52,073 nt of DNA from Ralstonia sp. TCR112. GTDB lineage: Bacteria > Pseudomonadota > Gammaproteobacteria > Burkholderiales > Burkholderiaceae. The translations under genes were made by a program, and so were the position numbers. Shown piece after piece: positions 86 to 8,416 of the stretch (its first letter is position 1; every line of letters begins with the position of its first letter). The DNA is taken from assembly GCF_007997035.1 (NCBI RefSeq), contig NZ_VOSS01000100.1:1-52073 (forward strand). The letters run 5' to 3'. The notes beneath the pieces were generated by a model. The model worked only from the letters and a program-made list of their open reading frames with translations, ran no database searches and had not been told where the DNA came from.

Positions 86-1318
86 TTACGCCGCTTCCGC
101 TTCGCAGAGCGCGCGGCCAAACAACAGGCGCTGGCGGATCGACGTGATGGGCACCTCGCGTTGGATCAGGTCGAAGTACCACGGGCCGTCGGCAACATCG
201 CCGTACAGGACTGCGCCGACGATGCGGTCTTCCTTCAGCACCAGGCGCTTGTAGACGCCGCGGCGCGGGTCGCGCAGCACGATGTCTTCGGTGCCGTCGC
301 CGCCGATGAAATCGCCTGCCGAATACAAGTCCACGCCGGTGACCTTCAGCTTGGTGGCCGTGGCCTGCTGGACATAGCGGCGGTGCCCGGCGCCGGCCAG
401 GTGCGCGGCACACACGCGGGCCTGGTCCCAGATGGGAGCAACGAGGCCGAACGTGGCGCTGCGGTGCTGCACGCATTCGCCCACGGCGTAGATGCGCGGA
501 TCGTAGGTCTGCAGCGTGTCGTCGACGATGATGGCGCGTTCGCAATGCAGGCCGGCCGCCTTGGCAAGCTCGATGTTCGGGCGTACGCCGGCCGTCATGA
601 CGACGAGGTCGGCGGGGATCTCGGTGCCATCCTTGAAGCGCACGGCGGTCACGCGGTCGGTGCCCAGCAGCTCCGCCGTGTGCGCCCCCAGCAGGAAGCG
701 CAGGCCCTTGGCTTCCAGCGCCTTCTGCAGCAGTTGTGCGGCGGGCTTGTCCAGCTGACGCTCCATCAGCGTGTCGGGCAGGTGCACGACCGTCACGTCC
801 ATGCCTTGGCGCATCAGCCCGTTGGCCGCTTCGAGCCCGAGCAGGCCGCCGCCGATGACGACCGCATGCCGATGGTTGCGCGCGGCTTCGAGCATCGTCT
901 CCACGTCCTGGATGTCGCGGAAGGCAATCACGCCGGGCAGCAGATGCCCCGGCACCGGCAGGATGAACGGCCGCGAACCGGTGGCGATCAACAGGCGGTC
1001 GTAGCGCACCTCCACGCCGTCGCGCGAGCGCAGCGTGCGGCGCGGTCGGTCGATAGCCACCACCGGGTCGCCTGCATGCAGCGTGATGTGGTTCTGTTCG
1101 TACCACTCACGCGTGTTGAGCATGATGTCGTCAACCTGCTTTTCGCCCGCCAGCACAGGCGAGAGCAGGATGCGGTTGTAGTTGCCGTGCGGCTCTTCGC
1201 CAAACACGGTGATGTCGTACAGGTCCGGCGCGAGCTTGAGCAATTCTTCGACCGTGCGCATGCCGGCCATGCCGTTGCCGATGACGACCAGCTTGGGGCG
1301 TACGGTCTTGGCGTTCAT
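86..1318 (-). CDS. NAD(P)/FAD-dependent oxidoreductase of the nitrate/nitrite assimilation operon
   Basis: Pyridine nucleotide-disulfide oxidoreductase of 410 residues. The FAD site VVIGNGMAGM is near residues 11-20 and the NAD(P) site VVIGGGLLG near 153-161, with a late GECVQH stretch of the FAD fold. It aligns by eye along its whole length with residues 1-400 of NirB in the same operon but lacks the [2Fe-2S] and siroheme domains, so it is a stand-alone copy of NirB's flavin module. The likely role is passing electrons from NAD(P)H to the assimilatory nitrate reductase expected just outside the window (inference). The start at 1318 is chosen because AGGAGAG lies a few bases upstream; longer in-frame extensions lack a site. 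It lies 86 bases after nirD, as the last complete gene of the operon. Confidence 0.85.
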   Translation of the reverse strand: MNAKTVRPKLVVIGNGMAGMRTVEELLKLAPDLYDITVFGEEPHGNYNRILLSPVLAGEKQVDDIMLNTREWYEQNHITLHAGDPVVAIDRPRRTLRSRDGVEVRYDRLLIATGSRPFILPVPGHLLPGVIAFRDIQDVETMLEAARNHRHAVVIGGGLLGLEAANGLMRQGMDVTVVHLPDTLMERQLDKPAAQLLQKALEAKGLRFLLGAHTAELLGTDRVTAVRFKDGTEIPADLVVMTAGVRPNIELAKAAGLHCERAIIVDDTLQTYDPRIYAVGECVQHRSATFGLVAPIWDQARVCAAHLAGAGHRRYVQQATATKLKVTGVDLYSAGDFIGGDGTEDIVLRDPRRGVYKRLVLKEDRIVGAVLYGDVADGPWYFDLIQREVPITSIRQRLLFGRALCEAEAA

Positions 1319-1404
1319 GCTGCCCTCTCCTGAAGGTTGTCGGTCATTGGATTCACTCAGTGCCGGCGGCCATGGCCCCGGCTTCACTGCTTACGGCTTG
1401 CGGC

Positions 1405-1743
1405 TCATGCCGCTACCCACACCTTGCCGTCTTCCACCTTGGTCGCGTACGCGTGCACGGAGTTGGCCGGCGCTTCGAGGCACTCACCCGTGGTCAGGTC
1501 GAAGTGCTGCTTGTAGATCGGCGACGCCACGACGATGCGTTCGCCCAGGTTGCCGACCAGCCCGCGCGAGAGCACAGCGGCATCGGAGTTCGGATCGTAG
1601 TTGCCGATGGCGTACACGCCTTGCGACGTGCTGCCGGCCACACGGAACACGGCAACCTGGTCTCCGTCCACCAGCGCGCACACGCCGGTGTTGGGAACGA
1701 TGTCGTCCAGGGCACAGACCGGAGTCCAACGGGATGCTTGCAT
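1405..1743 (-). CDS. nirD: Nitrite reductase (NADH) small subunit NirD
   Basis: Small subunit of the cytoplasmic NADH-dependent nitrite reductase that makes ammonium for assimilation. It has 112 residues, normal for the family. The fold is Rieske-like, but the usual CxH and CxxH iron-sulfur ligands are absent: the first ligand loop reads YAIGNYDP and the second PIYKQHF, as is typical of NirD. The start at 1743 (MQASRW) has GGAGGA just upstream; an in-frame codon at 1773 would run back through that site. It lies 26 bases after nirB, in the same operon. Confidence 0.93.
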   Translation of the reverse strand: MQASRWTPVCALDDIVPNTGVCALVDGDQVAVFRVAGSTSQGVYAIGNYDPNSDAAVLSRGLVGNLGERIVVASPIYKQHFDLTTGECLEAPANSVHAYATKVEDGKVWVAA

Positions 1744-1769
1744 GGGGTCCTCCTCTTCCTCTATCAGGC

Positions 1770-4325
1770 TCAAGCGGCTTCAGCAACAACGGGAATGCGC
1801 ACGGGCCGTGTCTTGGCGCGCTCTTCCACCGTAGCCGGGCGAATCTGGCCGCGCTCCTCGACGAAGACGACATTCGCATCCTTCGCCTCGCTGTTGACGA
1901 AGTGGCGGAAGCGCTTGCGCACGTCGGGGTTGGTCACGGCCGTCTTCCATTCGTCCTGGTAGGTGTCGACCACATGCTGCATCTCGGCTTCGAGTTCGGC
2001 CACGATGCCCAGCTTGTCGTGGATGACCACGTCCTTCAGGTAGTCGAGGCCGCCCTCCAGGTTGTCGCGCCATGTGCTGGTGCGTTGCAGGCGATCGGCC
2101 GTGCGCACGTAGAACATCAGGAAGCGGTCGACATACTTGATGAGCGTTTCCTGGTCGAGGTCGGCCGCCAGCAGTTCGGCATGGCGGGGCTTCATGCCGC
2201 CGTTGCCGCACACGTACAGGTTCCAGCCCTTCTCGGTAGCGATGATGCCGACGTCCTTGCCTTGCGCCTCGGCGCATTCACGCGTGCAGCCCGACACGCC
2301 AAACTTCAGCTTGTGCGGCGAGCGCAGGCCCTTGTAGCGGTTCTCCAGCGCAATCGCAAAACCGACCGAATCGCCCACGCCATAGCGGCACCATGTGGAA
2401 CCCACGCACGACTTCACCGTGCGCAGCGATTTGCCATACGCGTGGCCCGACTCGAAGCCTGCCGCGATCAACTCTTCCCAGATCAGCGGCAGTTGCTCCA
2501 GGCGCGCGCCGAACAGGTCGACACGCTGGCCGCCGGTGATCTTGGTGTACAGGCCGTATTTCTTGGCGACCTGGCCCACGGCGATCAGGCCGTCTGCCGT
2601 GACCTCGCCGCCGGGCATGCGCGGCACCACGGAGTACGTACCGTCCTTCTGGATGTTGGCGAGGAAGTAGTCGTTGGAATCCTGCAGGCTGGCGTGCTCC
2701 TTCTTGAGCACGAAGTCGTTCCAGCACGAAGCGAGGATGCTCGCCACAGCCGGCTTGCAGATGTCGCAGCCCATGCCGCTGCCGTGCGCTTCCAGCAGCG
2801 CTTCGAACGACTGGATGCGGCCCACGCGCACCAGGTGATACAGCTCCTGACGCGAATACGGAAAGTGCTCGCAGATGTGGTTGTTGACGGCCAGGCCCTG
2901 CTTCTTCATCTCGGCCTTCATCACCTGCGTCATGAGCGGCACGCAGCCGCCGCACGAGGTACCGGCCTTGGTCGCGTCCTTGAGCGCGCCTACCGACGTG
3001 GCGCCGGCACACACCGCTTGGCACAGCGCGCCCTTCGACACGTCGTTGCACGAGCAGATCTGCGCGCTGTCGGGCAGCGCGTCCACACCCAGCGCCGGCC
3101 GCGCATTGCCATCGGCCTGCGGCAGGATCAGGAATTCCGGTGCTTCGGGCAATTCGATGCGGTTGAGCATCATCTGAAGCAGCGTGCCGTATTCGGCCGC
3201 ATCCCCCACCAGCACGCCGCCCAGCAGGTACTTGCCGTCTTCGGACAGCACCAGCTTTTTGTAGATCTGCTTGCGCTCATCTGTGAACAGCACGCTGCGG
3301 CTGCCCGGCGTCACACCCTGCGCATCGCCCAGGCTGGCGACGTCCACGCCCATCAGCTTGAGCTTGGTGCTCATGTCGGCGCCGCTGAACTCCGACGCGT
3401 CGTCCGCCGCCAGGATCTGCTTGGCGGTGATGCGGGCCATCTCGTAGCCGGGCGCAACCAGCCCGTAGACCTTGCCGCCCCACAGCGCGCATTCGCCAAT
3501 CGCGTACACATCGGGCGCGGAGGTGCGGCACTCGGAGTCGATCACGATGCCGCCGCGCTCGCCCACTTCCAGCCCGCAGGCGCGCGCCAGTTCATCGCGC
3601 GGGCGGATGCCGGCCGAGAAGACGACCATGTCGGCCTCCAGGTGCGTGCCATCGGCAAAGTTCAGGCGGTGCGTCGCCGTTTCGCCGTCGACGATTTCCG
3701 ACGTGTTCTTCTGCGTGTGGACGGTCACGCCCAGGTCTTCGATCTTCCGGCGCAGCATGCGGCCGCCGCCGTCGTCCACCTGCATCGCCATCAGGCGGCC
3801 GGCAAACTCGACCACGTGCGTTTGCAGGTTCATGTCGCGCAGCGCCTTGGCGCATTCCAGCCCCAGCAGGCCGCCGCCGATGACGACGCCGGTCTTGGCC
3901 CGTTGGCCGCACTCGGCCATCGCTTCGAGGTCTTCGATGGTGCGATAGACGAAGCAGTCCTTGCGATCGCGGCCCGGCACCGGCGGCACAAACGGCGAAG
4001 AGCCCGACGCGATGACGAGCTTGTCGTACGGCAGCACCTCGCCGGTGGAGGCCGTCACCGTTTTGGCGCTGGTGTCGATGGCCGTGGCGCGGGCGTTGAG
4101 CTTGAGCACCACGTCATCGCGGTCAAAGAAGCCCGGCGCCACGAGCGAGAGATCTTCCGCCGTCTTGCCCGTGAAGAATTCCGACAGGTGCACGCGGTCG
4201 TAGGCGGGGCGCGGCTCTTCGCACAGCACCGTCACCTCAAGGTGATGGCCCGGTGCATGCAGCAGGCTTTCCAGAAACTTGTGGCCCACCATTCCGTGGC
4301 CAATGACGACGATCTTCATGGTCAT
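1770..4325 (-). CDS. nirB: Nitrite reductase (NADH) large subunit NirB
   Basis: Catalytic subunit reducing nitrite to ammonium with six electrons from NADH; 851 residues, full length for the family. Domains in order: FAD site KIVVIGHGM at residues 4-12 and NAD(P) site VVIGGGLLG near 148-156; a BFD-like [2Fe-2S] domain (CSCN then CGGC) near 424-462; sirohaem/4Fe-4S reductase domain with CVGSTWC near 640-646 and CTREC near 680-684, the four cysteines that ligate the coupled cluster. The start MTMKIVV has AGAGGA upstream. It begins 14 bases after narK and is followed by nirD. Expression is probably set by the leader at 5685-5808. Confidence 0.97.
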   Translation of the reverse strand: MTMKIVVIGHGMVGHKFLESLLHAPGHHLEVTVLCEEPRPAYDRVHLSEFFTGKTAEDLSLVAPGFFDRDDVVLKLNARATAIDTSAKTVTASTGEVLPYDKLVIASGSSPFVPPVPGRDRKDCFVYRTIEDLEAMAECGQRAKTGVVIGGGLLGLECAKALRDMNLQTHVVEFAGRLMAMQVDDGGGRMLRRKIEDLGVTVHTQKNTSEIVDGETATHRLNFADGTHLEADMVVFSAGIRPRDELARACGLEVGERGGIVIDSECRTSAPDVYAIGECALWGGKVYGLVAPGYEMARITAKQILAADDASEFSGADMSTKLKLMGVDVASLGDAQGVTPGSRSVLFTDERKQIYKKLVLSEDGKYLLGGVLVGDAAEYGTLLQMMLNRIELPEAPEFLILPQADGNARPALGVDALPDSAQICSCNDVSKGALCQAVCAGATSVGALKDATKAGTSCGGCVPLMTQVMKAEMKKQGLAVNNHICEHFPYSRQELYHLVRVGRIQSFEALLEAHGSGMGCDICKPAVASILASCWNDFVLKKEHASLQDSNDYFLANIQKDGTYSVVPRMPGGEVTADGLIAVGQVAKKYGLYTKITGGQRVDLFGARLEQLPLIWEELIAAGFESGHAYGKSLRTVKSCVGSTWCRYGVGDSVGFAIALENRYKGLRSPHKLKFGVSGCTRECAEAQGKDVGIIATEKGWNLYVCGNGGMKPRHAELLAADLDQETLIKYVDRFLMFYVRTADRLQRTSTWRDNLEGGLDYLKDVVIHDKLGIVAELEAEMQHVVDTYQDEWKTAVTNPDVRKRFRHFVNSEAKDANVVFVEERGQIRPATVEERAKTRPVRIPVVAEAA

Positions 4326-4339
4326 GGTGATGTCCTCTT

Positions 4340-5662
4340 TCAGGCGTTGCCGGCAGCGGCCAGCGTGTTGTCGTAGAGCGCTTGTTCACGCGCCTTGTGT
4401 TCCGGCGAAAAGCGCACGGCAATCGCACAGATGGCAGACAGCCCGACCAGCACGCCCAGCACCGACAGCGTGGCCTGCGTATCCGCCATGCCCTTGAGCA
4501 GGAAGCCCGCAGCCACCGCGCCGGCGTTGCCGCCCGCGCCGATGATGCCGGCCACACCGCCCAGCGCACGGCGATCGATAAACGGCACCAGCGCATACGT
4601 CGCGCCGCATGCCATGTGCGTGAACAGGCCGAAGCCGAGCATCGCCAGGATGGCGATCGGCACGCTGCCCGCATGGGCAAATCCGAACAGGCCCAGGCCC
4701 TCGCCCACCATCAGCACGCACAGCAGTTGGGTCCGTGCATCCAGGCCGCGCTTGGCGGCCACGCGATCCGAAACGATGCCGCCCAGTGCGCGGGCAAACA
4801 GCGCCAGCAGGCCGAAGCTCGCGGCAGCCATGCCCGCGGCCGACAGCGACAGGCCGAAGTGGTCGACGTAGTAGGTAGCGGCGATGTTGTGGATGAAGAT
4901 CTCCACGCCAAAGCACGCGCCGTAGGTGATGAACAGCAGCCACACACGGTAGTTGCCGGCAGCGGACACAAAGCTGCCCCAGCCGCCCTTCTTGCCGCCG
5001 TCGATGGTCTTGCCGGCGGCGCGCAGCGCGCTGAAGTTGCCCTCCGGGCAGTCCTGCGTATAGCGCCAGTACAGCGCCGCGACGATCAGCATCGCCACGC
5101 CCGGCACCACCATGGCGAGGCGCCACCCCAGGCTCTGCGTCACGCCCATCATCACGATGGCGGTCAGCAGCAGCGGCATCGTGCCTTGCGCCACACCGCC
5201 GCCTGCGTTGCCCCAGCCTGCAGCCGCCGCGTTGGCCGTGCCGACCACGTTGGGCGCGAACATGACCGACGTGTGGTACTGCGTGATGACGAAGCTCGCG
5301 CCGATCGCGCCGATCGCCAGGCGGAAGAACAGGAAGGCCTCGTAGCTTTGCGCCAGCGCCACGCCCAGCACGGGGACGGCGCCGAGCAGCAGCAAGCCGG
5401 TATAGGTCTTGCGCGGGCCGAAGCGGTCGCACAGCGGGCCGACAATCAGCCGCACCAGGATCGTCACCGCCACGGCCGCGATGTTGATGTTGGCGATCTG
5501 GCCCGGCGTGAGGTGGAACTCGCCCTTGAGCACCGGCATGAGCGGCGCGCAGGCAAACCACGCGTAGAAACACACGAAGAACGCGAGCCACGTCAGATGG
5601 AAGGCGCGCATCTGCGGCGTGCGCAGGCTGAACAGGTCGATTCGGGTCGCTTTGCCGGTCAT
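4340..5662 (-). CDS. narK: Nitrate/nitrite transporter, NarK/NasA family MFS
   Basis: Inner-membrane major facilitator of 440 residues with about 12 hydrophobic segments. It carries both nitrate-signature motifs of the NNP family: AGWGNAGGG in the fifth helix region and GAGGNAGA near the eleventh. This supports nitrate uptake (or nitrate/nitrite exchange) feeding NirBD. The start MTGKATRID at 5662 is preferred because GATGGGA lies at the right distance; an in-frame codon at 5677 would add five residues. First gene of the narK-nirB-nirD-flavoprotein operon, preceded by a terminator-bearing leader and a sigma-54 promoter. Confidence 0.93.
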   Translation of the reverse strand: MTGKATRIDLFSLRTPQMRAFHLTWLAFFVCFYAWFACAPLMPVLKGEFHLTPGQIANINIAAVAVTILVRLIVGPLCDRFGPRKTYTGLLLLGAVPVLGVALAQSYEAFLFFRLAIGAIGASFVITQYHTSVMFAPNVVGTANAAAAGWGNAGGGVAQGTMPLLLTAIVMMGVTQSLGWRLAMVVPGVAMLIVAALYWRYTQDCPEGNFSALRAAGKTIDGGKKGGWGSFVSAAGNYRVWLLFITYGACFGVEIFIHNIAATYYVDHFGLSLSAAGMAAASFGLLALFARALGGIVSDRVAAKRGLDARTQLLCVLMVGEGLGLFGFAHAGSVPIAILAMLGFGLFTHMACGATYALVPFIDRRALGGVAGIIGAGGNAGAVAAGFLLKGMADTQATLSVLGVLVGLSAICAIAVRFSPEHKAREQALYDNTLAAAGNA

Positions 5663-5663
5663 G

Positions 5664-5677
5664 TTGAATCCCATCAA
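5664..5677 (-). promoter_or_regulatory. FNR/ANR-like half-site pair over the narK ribosome binding site
   Basis: On the minus strand TTGAT-GGGA-TTCAA matches the FNR consensus TTGAT-N4-ATCAA at 9 of 10 positions. It lies inside the transcribed leader and over the ribosome binding site, an unusual place for an activator site, so it may be chance or a block to transcription. Confidence 0.2.
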
Positions 5678-5684
5678 TCAGGGG

Positions 5685-5741
5685 CCAAAAAAAAGAAAGG
5701 CGTCCGAGAGCCCGGCTGCAGTAGCCGGGGTCTGGGACGCC
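5685..5741 (-). terminator. Leader attenuator (intrinsic terminator) ahead of narK
   Basis: On the minus strand GGCGTCC (5741-5735) pairs with GGACGCC (5705-5699), enclosing a second seven-pair stem CCCGGCT/AGCCGGG (5729-5723 with 5717-5711). It is followed at once by TTTCTTTTTTTT. This is a strong Rho-independent terminator placed between promoter and first gene, so transcription of narK-nirBD requires read-through. Confidence 0.88.
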
Positions 5742-5808
5742 GTTGTCCAAGTAGCCCTGAGCACCAGGGCCTTCACCACGAAGAGCACGAATCGCCTTTG
5801 ACCCGCGC
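5735..5808 (-). promoter_or_regulatory. ANTAR-type tandem hexaloop antiterminator in the nitrate operon leader
   Basis: Two hairpins on the minus strand each carry a six-base loop with A at position 1 and G at position 4, the ANTAR recognition pattern. Hairpin P1 spans 5808-5785: arms GCGCGGGUC and GAUUCGUGC give nine pairs, three of them G-U, around loop AAAGGC. Hairpin P2 spans 5748-5735: arms GGAC and GUCC around loop AACGGC. P2 uses the same bases as the 5' arm of the downstream terminator, so binding that stabilises P1/P2 would prevent termination. An extra hairpin, GCCCTG/CAGGGC, sits between them at 5754-5770. NasT or NasR is the expected ligand (family knowledge); neither gene is in the window. 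Confidence 0.75.
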
Positions 5809-5818
5809 AATGGTGCTA

Positions 5819-5835
5819 TGCAACAGGTATGCCAG
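5819..5835 (-). promoter_or_regulatory. Sigma-54 (-24/-12) promoter of narK-nirBD
   Basis: The minus strand reads CTGGCATACCTGTTGCA, matching the sigma-54 pattern TGGCAC-N5-TTGCA with the GG and GC pairs exactly twelve bases apart. The -12 C is at 5820, which puts +1 at about 5808, the first base of hairpin P1. This fits NtrC-dependent nitrogen control. An inverted repeat GCACCG/CGGTGC at 5912-5936, about 110 bases upstream, might be an NtrC-type enhancer site, but its spacing is not the standard one. Confidence 0.75.
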
Positions 5836-6049
5836 GCGGGCAAAGCCTTGAGCTATCGCGGTTTGCGGGAGATTGACGAGAAATCGCCGCCCGCGCGTGC
5901 CTCATGCGGGAGCACCGCGCCGCACGGTTTCGGTGCAGATGCGGTTCGGGATGGTGCGGCACAGCAAATGCGTGGGCCGCCGCCAATGGCGACCGGCACA
6001 TCACCTGCATGACGTGTGGAAGGAGAAGCTGCCGGATCCGTAACCGACG

Positions 6050-6759: not shown

Positions 6760-6871
6760 GTTCGCGCTCCAATGAATGTGCGTTTTGAGGGACGTTACCG
6801 CACAGGCATAGTAGGCGAAGACCGCACAATCGCGATGCGGCGCTCACACGGTTTTTGCAATTGCGTCGTGT

Positions 6872-8416
6872 TCAACGGAACACGTTCACCGCCTCCACCA
6901 AGCGTGTCGCCTGGATGCGCAGGCCCTCGGCCGCCGCCGCGCTCTGGCCGACCAGCGTGGCGTTCTCCTGCGTGACCTGATCCAGATGGTTGACCGCCTG
7001 GCTGACCTGCGTGATGCCTTCGGTCTGCTGCGCCGTCGCCAGGCTGATGTCGGCGATCATGGCCGAGACCTTCTTGACCTGCTCGACGATGTCGTCCATG
7101 GTCTTGCCGGCGTCGTCCACCAGCCGCGAGCCGGATTCCACCTTGTCGACACTGGTGCCGATCAGCTCCTTGATCTCCTTGGCTGCACCGGCGCTGCGCT
7201 GCGCAAGCGCACGCACCTCGCCCGCGACGACAGCAAAACCACGCCCCTGCTCGCCGGCACGCGCGGCTTCCACGGCCGCATTGAGCGCCAGGATGTTGGT
7301 CTGGAACGCGATGCTGTCGATCACGCCGATGATGTCGGCAATCTGCTTGGCGCTCTGCGTGATGGCGCTCATGGTGGAGACCACCTGTTCCATGGCACGG
7401 CCGCCGTTGACCGCCGCCTGCGTGGCCGCGCTCGACAACGTGTTGGCCTGCCCGGCCGTCTCGGCATTGCTGGCCACCGTGGCGGTCATCTGCGTCATCG
7501 AGCTGGAGGTTTCTTCCAGGCTGGCAGCGGCCTGCTCCGTGCGGATGTTGATGTCGCCGTTGCCCTTGGCGATCTCCTGGCTGGCCGATTGCACGTTGAC
7601 GACCTGCTCGGCCACGTCGTCGATCAACCAGCGAAACATCAGCCCGAGCTGACTGATCGTGCGCAGCGTCATGCCGATCTCGTCCACGCGGTCTGCGATG
7701 GCGACTTTCCGGCTCTCACCCGAGGCCACGCTCAGTGCGAGCTCCTGCAGCTTTTCAAGCGGCGTGGCGATCTGCACCTTCAATGACCACGACGCCAGCG
7801 CCAGCGCCACGAGCAACGCGCCGGCAAAACCGCCGAGCGCCGCGCCGGAGAGCCCAAACGCCCACGCCACCGCCACCAGCGCGGGCAGCAATGTGAGAAA
7901 CGTGAGCCGGATGCGCCAGCGCACCGGCATCACCTGAAACACCGAACGCCAGGCCATCAACCCGGTTCGCACGATCAGACCCTTGTGAAACTTCCGGCTG
8001 CCGGCTTGGCCGGTGCGGAAATCCTTGTAGAGCGCCTCGGCTGCAGCGATCTCCTCGCGCGTGGGCTTGGTGCGCACTGACATATAGCCGCTGGTCCGGC
8101 CGTTACGCACCACGGGCGTTGCATTGGCACGCACCCAATAATGGTCGCCATTCTTGCGGCGGTTCTTGACCAGCGCCGTCCATGGTTGCCCCGCCTTGAG
8201 CGTGGCCCACATGTCGGCAAATGCCTCGGTTGGCATATCCGGGTGACGCACGATGTTATGTGGCTGCCCTTCGATCTCTTCGCGGGAAAAACCGCTCACC
8301 TCCACAAACGCTGCGTTCGCATACGCGATGTAGCTCTGGGTATCGGTGGTCGACATGAGCGTGGCGTTGTCCGGGAACTCGTATTCGCGCTGGGTAACAG
8401 GTTCGTTGACACGCAT
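6872..8416 (-). CDS. Methyl-accepting chemotaxis protein with N-terminal PAS domain (Aer-like)
   Basis: A 514-residue chemoreceptor that probably senses redox or oxygen state. Residues about 10-110 form a PAS domain ([31 protein letters not shown]). A hydrophobic pair of segments near 170-212 anchors it to the inner membrane. It is followed by a HAMP-like linker and a signalling domain with the conserved hairpin tip [20 protein letters not shown], which binds CheA/CheW. There is no periplasmic domain, consistent with a cytoplasmic PAS input. Start 8416 ([14 protein letters not shown]) follows AAGGAG; an open extension to 8509 has no site. No C-terminal CheR-docking pentapeptide is seen. Confidence 0.9.

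Follow-up and report, generated by a model that had tools for sequence, protein, structure and literature searches.

The window analysed here is the whole of a 52,073-nucleotide contig (C3) of Ralstonia sp. TCR112, whose genome is assembled in 292 contigs. Four closely spaced genes run along its minus strand up to the contig end: a narK-type MFS transporter (4340..5662; Pfam MFS_1), assigned to nitrate/nitrite by context, the nitrite reductase large subunit nirB (1770..4325; Pfam domains), the Rieske-like small subunit nirD (1405..1773; Pfam Rieske_2) and an ORF for an FAD/NAD-dependent oxidoreductase (86..1387; Pfam Pyr_redox_2 and Rubredoxin_C), which probably belongs to the narK-nirBD operon. 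Conservation points to the ATG at 5662-5660 as the likely start of narK.

Promoter and leader elements upstream of narK

Promoters of the sigma-54/NtrC type carry the consensus TGGCAY-N5-TTGC together with an upstream NtrC dyad. A -24/-12 element of this kind, TGGCATACCTGTTGC, is located upstream of narK at 5820..5834 on the minus strand, as are all leader features described below, and sigma-54 geometry predicts a +1 at 5808, 12 nt after the C of the -12 motif. The predicted +1 is preceded, at a distance of approximately 130 bp, by an NtrC-like palindrome, TGCACCGAAACCGTGCG (5921..5937), 9 or 10 of whose 12 positions fit the NtrC consensus by raw count. Both elements are present in all 16 same-genus leaders; the -24/-12 element varies at positions 6 and 7 only and the palindrome is found 103 bp (13 leaders) or 93 bp (three leaders) upstream of it. 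Measured against the consensus, the element, the upstream dyad and the presence of RpoN and NtrC in the genome point to a sigma-54/NtrC promoter. A simple sigma-70 promoter scan of the window found nothing. Farther upstream, the 16 genus sequences share another nearly invariant block at ~5973-5951, centred on TTTGCTGTGCCGCACCAT, which is possibly a second activator site.

The predicted +1 is also the first base of a hairpin, which we term P0 (P1 in the original prediction), at 5785..5808, in which GCGCGGGTC and GATTCGTGC form nine pairs, three of them G-U, around the hexaloop AAAGGC (5799-5794). The antiterminator hairpin P2 (5732..5751) has the arms CTTGGAC and GTCCCAG enclosing the hexaloop AACGGC (5744-5739); its GGAC/GTCC core forms four pairs, with two more outside a U-C mismatch, and the hairpin alone folds at only -4.9 kcal/mol. 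An intrinsic terminator hairpin, GGCGTCC...GGACGCC (5699..5741; -31.5 kcal/mol), overlaps P2 in loop positions 4-6 and in the 3′ arm and is followed by the U tract TTTCTTTTTTTT at 5687..5698. P0 and P2 each have three or more pairs and an A1/G4 hexaloop, as looked for in an ANTAR leader. The region 5808-5680 folds with a z score of -2.99 against 200 shuffles. In folds of growing prefixes P0 appears first, a middle hairpin M preceded by a small additional one comes next, and last comes P2, which is displaced by the terminator once the 3′ arm of the latter is made, so that P2 and the terminator are predicted to be mutually exclusive. The original prediction, made from the letters of the window, had placed the promoter element, the start at 5808, the nine-pair AAAGGC hairpin and a second hairpin with loop AACGGC overlapping the 5′ arm of a terminator that ends before narK, and sequence and folding bear out each of these base-level claims. 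A mechanical scan of the window reported no terminator, probably owing to internal mismatches in the stem and to its limitation to loops of 3-8 nt. We discarded a leader peptide (frame GTG GTG AAG ... across linker and terminator, found by eye) as its frame is broken by indels in the leaders L011, L015 and L017.

Distribution of the leader and its candidate regulators

With the 196-base leader as query, 17 of 41 genomes (our own plus 40 relatives) gave a match, namely our own, all 15 of the other same-genus genomes and one from another genus. The original prediction had named conservation of the hexaloops in relatives as a check, and none of the 16 same-genus leaders departs from A1 and G4 in either loop. 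Positions 1, 2, 4, 5 and 6 of the P0 loop are invariant, the third base being A (ten leaders), T (four) or C (two), and the P2 loop is invariant throughout. Across the order, a pattern spanning promoter to P2 loop occurred at 110 places in 94 of 399 genomes as opposed to two places for the reversed control. That the hairpins are chance or a relic, with narK-nirBD controlled at the promoter only, is very improbable given this difference, the conservation of the leader and its association with genes; the sigma-70 scan of the window is uninformative either way.

The pattern is found at only two places in our own genome, one ahead of narK and the other ahead of nrtA on contig C92. The nrtA leader (L031 2550-2420, minus strand) shares with the window the sigma-54 promoter, the P2 loop AACGGC and the overlapping terminator; unlike the window it contains two hairpins only, with almost no linker, and its first loop is AACGTG. 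A family version of the pattern occurs in at least 151 of 249 family genomes, and among the matches listed each of the 16 genus genomes has exactly two, the second preceding nrtA in our own genome and in loci L020-L029. A genus model, R1, matches 22 of 300 order genomes, at six of which (L083, L085, L086, L088, L091 and L093) the leader script finds no leader.

We collected 191 leaders from all 247 loci, which had been enriched by searches with Rfam, R1 and two patterns, requiring the P2 form [AG]CAA[AC]GGCGTC; 40 of the listed family-pattern places that had lacked a locus were retrieved. One of six recognised genes follows 176 of these leaders: narK (74), nrtA-like (78), FAD oxidoreductase (18), NasS-like (3), nasA-like (2) and nirB (1), labelled by tblastn against six reference proteins at identities of 68-100 % for narK and down to 34 % for nrtA-like genes, and counted in a sample whose frequencies are not those of the population because it was enriched by our own searches and has a fixed P2 form. 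Other P2 forms are missed by this requirement and close relatives recur, 16 of the 74 narK leaders being from the window's genus. Some of the 15 leaders with no recognised gene are surely chance matches. All 176 gene-linked leaders, and 187 of 191 overall, have a terminator that overlaps P2, its 3′ arm pairing with the loop and the 3′ arm of P2, compared with 13 of 191 when the downstream sequence is shuffled.

The presence of an ANTAR protein in the genome had likewise been set as a check, and a profile search identified one (G000:C102:2651-2806; 74.2 bits, cut-off 27.3). Its Pfam ANTAR match scores 72.1 bits, above cut-off, and is preceded by a Response_reg match of 20.1 bits, below the cut-off of 30.2; the protein is 96-97 % identical to its six best matches, four of them from Ralstonia. 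As no other ANTAR protein was found, and this one has a weak receiver match besides ANTAR and no NIT domain, we rejected NasR-type (NIT-ANTAR) control as unlikely. The genome encodes one NtrC above the curated cut-off and two genes with an RpoN (sigma-54) DNA-binding domain (G000:C268:37931-38401 and G000:C212:67799-68269). Of the dual control originally put forward, by NtrC at the promoter and NasT or NasR at the leader, the NtrC and NasT-like parts are thus supported by the leader anatomy and its conservation, the ANTAR/NasT-like, NtrC and RpoN genes, the palindrome and the leaders of the same class before nitrate-assimilation genes, and the NasR part is unlikely.

The nasT gene lies on the 3.2-kb contig C102, which ends in a repeat array, and the nrtA contig starts within the same repeats; in Ralstonia sp. 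NFACC01 (L021) nasT, the repeats, the leader, nrtA and two further transporter ORFs, to which the names nrtB and nrtC could be given by inspection only, are contiguous. The repeats between nasT and the nrtA leader are 42-nt tandem units, with 7.2 copies in our own C102 (L002 2920-3221) and 8.9 in L025 (6832-7206). An array is also found in L021 (~6840-7060), the array is not the same from one Ralstonia genome to another, the repeat core occurs as a single copy elsewhere in our own genome (C46, C229 and C259) and an exact pattern for the core is found in 10 of the 16 genus genomes. A role for the repeats as a NasT sponge was rejected on the basis of weak folds (z -1.76 and -0.01) and a common unit with no A1/G4 hexaloop hairpin.

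No NasS distinct from NrtA was found in the 16 genus genomes with the NasS-like query L081, which has one relative each in 15 (partial in G007) and matches two stretches in the remaining one. In our own genome that relative is the nrtA product, which by eye has an RR-type signal-like N-terminus, and none of nine weaker NMT1_2 matches in this genome matches the query at E 0.001. We therefore claim a NasT-like regulator alone rather than a NasS-NasT pair, and the nitrate signal may reach NasT through NrtA or another route.

The middle hairpin of the P0-P2 linker

The linker between P0 and P2 is 33 nt long in the window, or 36 nt if P2 is counted as GGAC/GTCC, and the original prediction, which had noted a 36-base linker with a hairpin of its own, suspected that so long a linker may be a variant. 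This suspicion was well placed, as the linker contains a third hairpin, M (5753..5771; -11.6 kcal/mol), with the arms GGCCCTG and CAGGGCT around the loop GTGCT, which is not an ANTAR hexaloop. The first 13 nt of the linker (5772..5784) include CTTCGTGGTGA, invariant in the alignment of all 16 genus leaders; the linkers of other genera differ from it. Within the genus 96.2 % of the cells of M are paired (15 distinct rows), the changes are one-sided and the pairing is not above column shuffles; with no double changes, covariation in the genus is uninformative for M. In a sister genus (g3) six of nine pairs of the middle stem show double changes, in 22 cells, among 14 of its 17 narK leaders (L212, L213 and L215, with no P0 found by the script, were excluded). 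Covariation there is 0.552 compared with 0.201 after shuffling, the score being reached by 0 of 500 shuffles and the number of pairs by 12 of 500, for a structure taken from the fold of one row and shuffles that ignore relatedness; when the partners are slid the score drops to 0.134 or less.

Long linkers are general among the narK leaders. All 70 of the 74 in which the script detected P0 have linkers of 28-52 nt, none short, and in all 74 the P2 loop is 86-103 nt from the first base of the promoter; among the nrtA-like leaders 33 of 78 have linkers of less than 20 nt. Linker folding was assessed on 60 representatives, after dropping linkers below 25 nt, near-duplicates and leaders with no recognised gene or no P0. 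The 39 of these long linkers (all gene classes) with no middle hexaloop have a mean z of -2.43, with 30 below -1 and nine not, and in the narK subset 16 of 18 are below -1.

A third A1/G4 loop sequence occurs in the middle of six narK leaders, all of one other family (f8), with the loops AATGAT, AACGGC, AACGAG (twice), AACGAT and AACGGT, the last two closed by a U-G pair, and in none of the 64 narK leaders that come from the family of the window. The minimum-energy linker fold lacks an open hexaloop in four of 25 three-loop leaders, including the narK leaders L092, L127 and L128, where loop base 1 pairs with base 6 and a four-base loop is left. Leaders with three A1/G4 hexaloop hairpins were also seen in several families of the order (L045, L051, L066, L070, L107, L108, L152, L175 and others).

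The centre of M is 18-25 nt from the centre of the P2 loop (median 20.5) in the 64 narK leaders with no middle hexaloop, the middle loop of three-loop leaders is 19-29 nt from the P2 loop (median 24, n = 25) and the P1 loop of short-linker leaders is 20-41 nt from it (median 24, n = 42). These equal distances suggest that M occupies the canonical place of P1 and that P0 is an extra, promoter-proximal hairpin. After folding, the external unpaired linker of the 64 narK leaders has a median of 12 nt (1-24); the raw linker of short-linker leaders, with a median of 4 nt (0-18), is shorter than this, yet the folded narK linkers come closer to it. On balance we lean towards the narK leaders of the order being a three-hairpin ANTAR subclass, P0-M-P2, in which all three hairpins carry NasT-type loop sequences in one family, and the middle one is kept as a hairpin but has no such loop in the window's family. 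As M then has no recognition loop, NasT would have to span the 28-52 nt between P0 and P2 or be passed across them.

We consider it highly probable that the window leader is a transcription-antitermination leader controlled by a NasT-like (ANTAR) protein, with M most likely a folded spacer and P0 a recruitment hairpin; NasT binding, the transcription start and the nitrate response are predictions from sequence. Under nitrogen limitation phosphorylated NtrC would activate the sigma-54 promoter, with transcription starting at 5808. Without nitrate the terminator would prevail and transcripts would end near 5687. Nitrate would free or activate NasT, a dimer of which would bind P0 and then P2; with P2 held by NasT the terminator could not close and narK-nirBD would be transcribed. 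EutV antitermination is reported to be harmed by a 14-nt linker and abolished by a 20-nt insertion (Ramesh 2012; Walshe 2022), so that a linker of 33 nt might fail with one dimer. Folding of M would leave a shorter path between P0 and P2, and we propose that M may act as a spacer that brings both hairpins within reach of one NasT dimer; this role is favoured and takes about half of the weight, with hand-over or pausing next.

In the same NasT-controlled leader, M may instead delay the polymerase while P2 is synthesised, allowing NasT on P0 to capture P2. The position of M 18-25 nt ahead of the P2 loop is compatible with such a pause or hand-over element, as is the variation of its loop and stem sequence between genera while the hairpin is mostly kept, and a model in which the protein binds successively while the polymerase is stalled has been put forward (Walshe 2022). 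However, the ordinary position of P1 alone accounts for the spacing of M, and we regard the pausing role as a tentative second choice. Least probable of the three roles, and in our view unlikely, is that M is a disguised NasT contact or a site for another protein or small RNA that adds a further signal. The invariance of CTTCGTGGTGA beside M in the genus, and a CATG that 11 of the 14 rows from the sister genus have in the loop of M, go beyond what a bare spacer would need, but M has an A1/G4 hexaloop in none of the 16 genus rows, its loops differ between genera and no Rfam family reaches threshold on the window. With M as a folded spacer still the favoured role, a three-hairpin subclass, if real, would break the EutV linker rule. 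It would imply either that reach is restored by a structured spacer or that hand-over proceeds in steps and involves more than one dimer of NasT.

Comparison with known antitermination leaders

ANTAR proteins bind two hairpins with A1/G4 hexaloops, the second of which is mutually exclusive with a terminator (Ramesh 2012; NasR paper PMC7496416). This dual-hairpin motif, described for EutV, NasR and AmiR (Ramesh 2012), has in common with the window both A1/G4 hexaloops and the exclusion between P2 and terminator. The two differ in the linker, 33-36 nt with a hairpin of its own in the window and 5-12 nt in the motif as given for the eut leaders of Enterococcus faecalis, although the definition itself calls the linker 'variable' (Ramesh 2012); the window linker with M therefore fits the wording of the definition and departs from EutV spacing. 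NasT has been reported to bind the leader RNA of Paracoccus nasA (PMC3795266). Bradyrhizobium narK has predicted NasT hairpins, yet its expression is up, not down, in the absence of nasT (PMC6759348).

Among the closest known systems is Pseudomonas nirBD, reported to require RpoN, NtrC and NasT (PMC8092218, PMC12830290). Its NalA/P11 leader (RF00625) shares with the window a sigma-54/NtrC promoter, NasT, a terminator and nirBD downstream (PMC12830290, PMC8092218); P11 and NalA appear to be one leader. As we read it, the RF00625 consensus opens with a -24/-12-like sequence and also contains a hairpin with a hexaloop as well as GGACAAAGGCGUCC. The RF00625 model has one hexaloop hairpin before P2 where the window has two hairpins, and the first gene of the window is narK. 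The consensus of the narK RNA motif (RF03032) has a -24/-12-like GGCaCAgcucUUGC at its start and the loops AACGGC and AAAGAC. The window scores 14.8 bits against RF00625 (gathering score 70) and 17.1 bits against RF03032 (gathering score 43.2; ~30 inserted bases), and with both scores below threshold we rejected Rfam membership of its leader. The nrtA leader of our own genome scores 31.1 bits (E 0.001) against RF03032, also below the gathering score. Among 300 order genomes 54 match RF03032 at E ≤ 0.01, three of them above the cut-off, and none of 14 control genomes does. An Rfam radC match upstream (22.3 bits against 40) was taken as chance. RF03032 and P11 are both plausibly NasT/ANTAR leaders.

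Among the matches listed in open-licence literature we found no mention of the narK motif or narK RNA, and those for Ralstonia with NasT and narK were genome papers alone. No description of a third hairpin in ANTAR leaders was found in this literature, although one may exist beyond it. The wording three, third or middle hairpin is absent from the accessible part of Ramesh 2012, as is three, third or additional hairpin from that of Walshe 2022.

As NasT antitermination behind a sigma-54/NtrC promoter is known from Pseudomonas nirBD, the kind of switch present in the window is not new. We suggest that a single class of leader, located before nitrate-assimilation genes in many genomes of the order, unites the ANTAR mechanism with the narK RNA motif and the P11/NalA leader of Pseudomonas. 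Short two-hairpin versions, three-loop versions and versions with a loop-less middle hairpin occur side by side in this class, two of them in this one genome, and as these natural versions coexist, how an ANTAR dimer engages two loops during transcription can be tested by comparing variants. The narK leaders represent natural exceptions to the short-linker rule measured for EutV, and what is new relative to the known kind is an extra conserved hairpin in the linker, where the usual spacing rule allows none.
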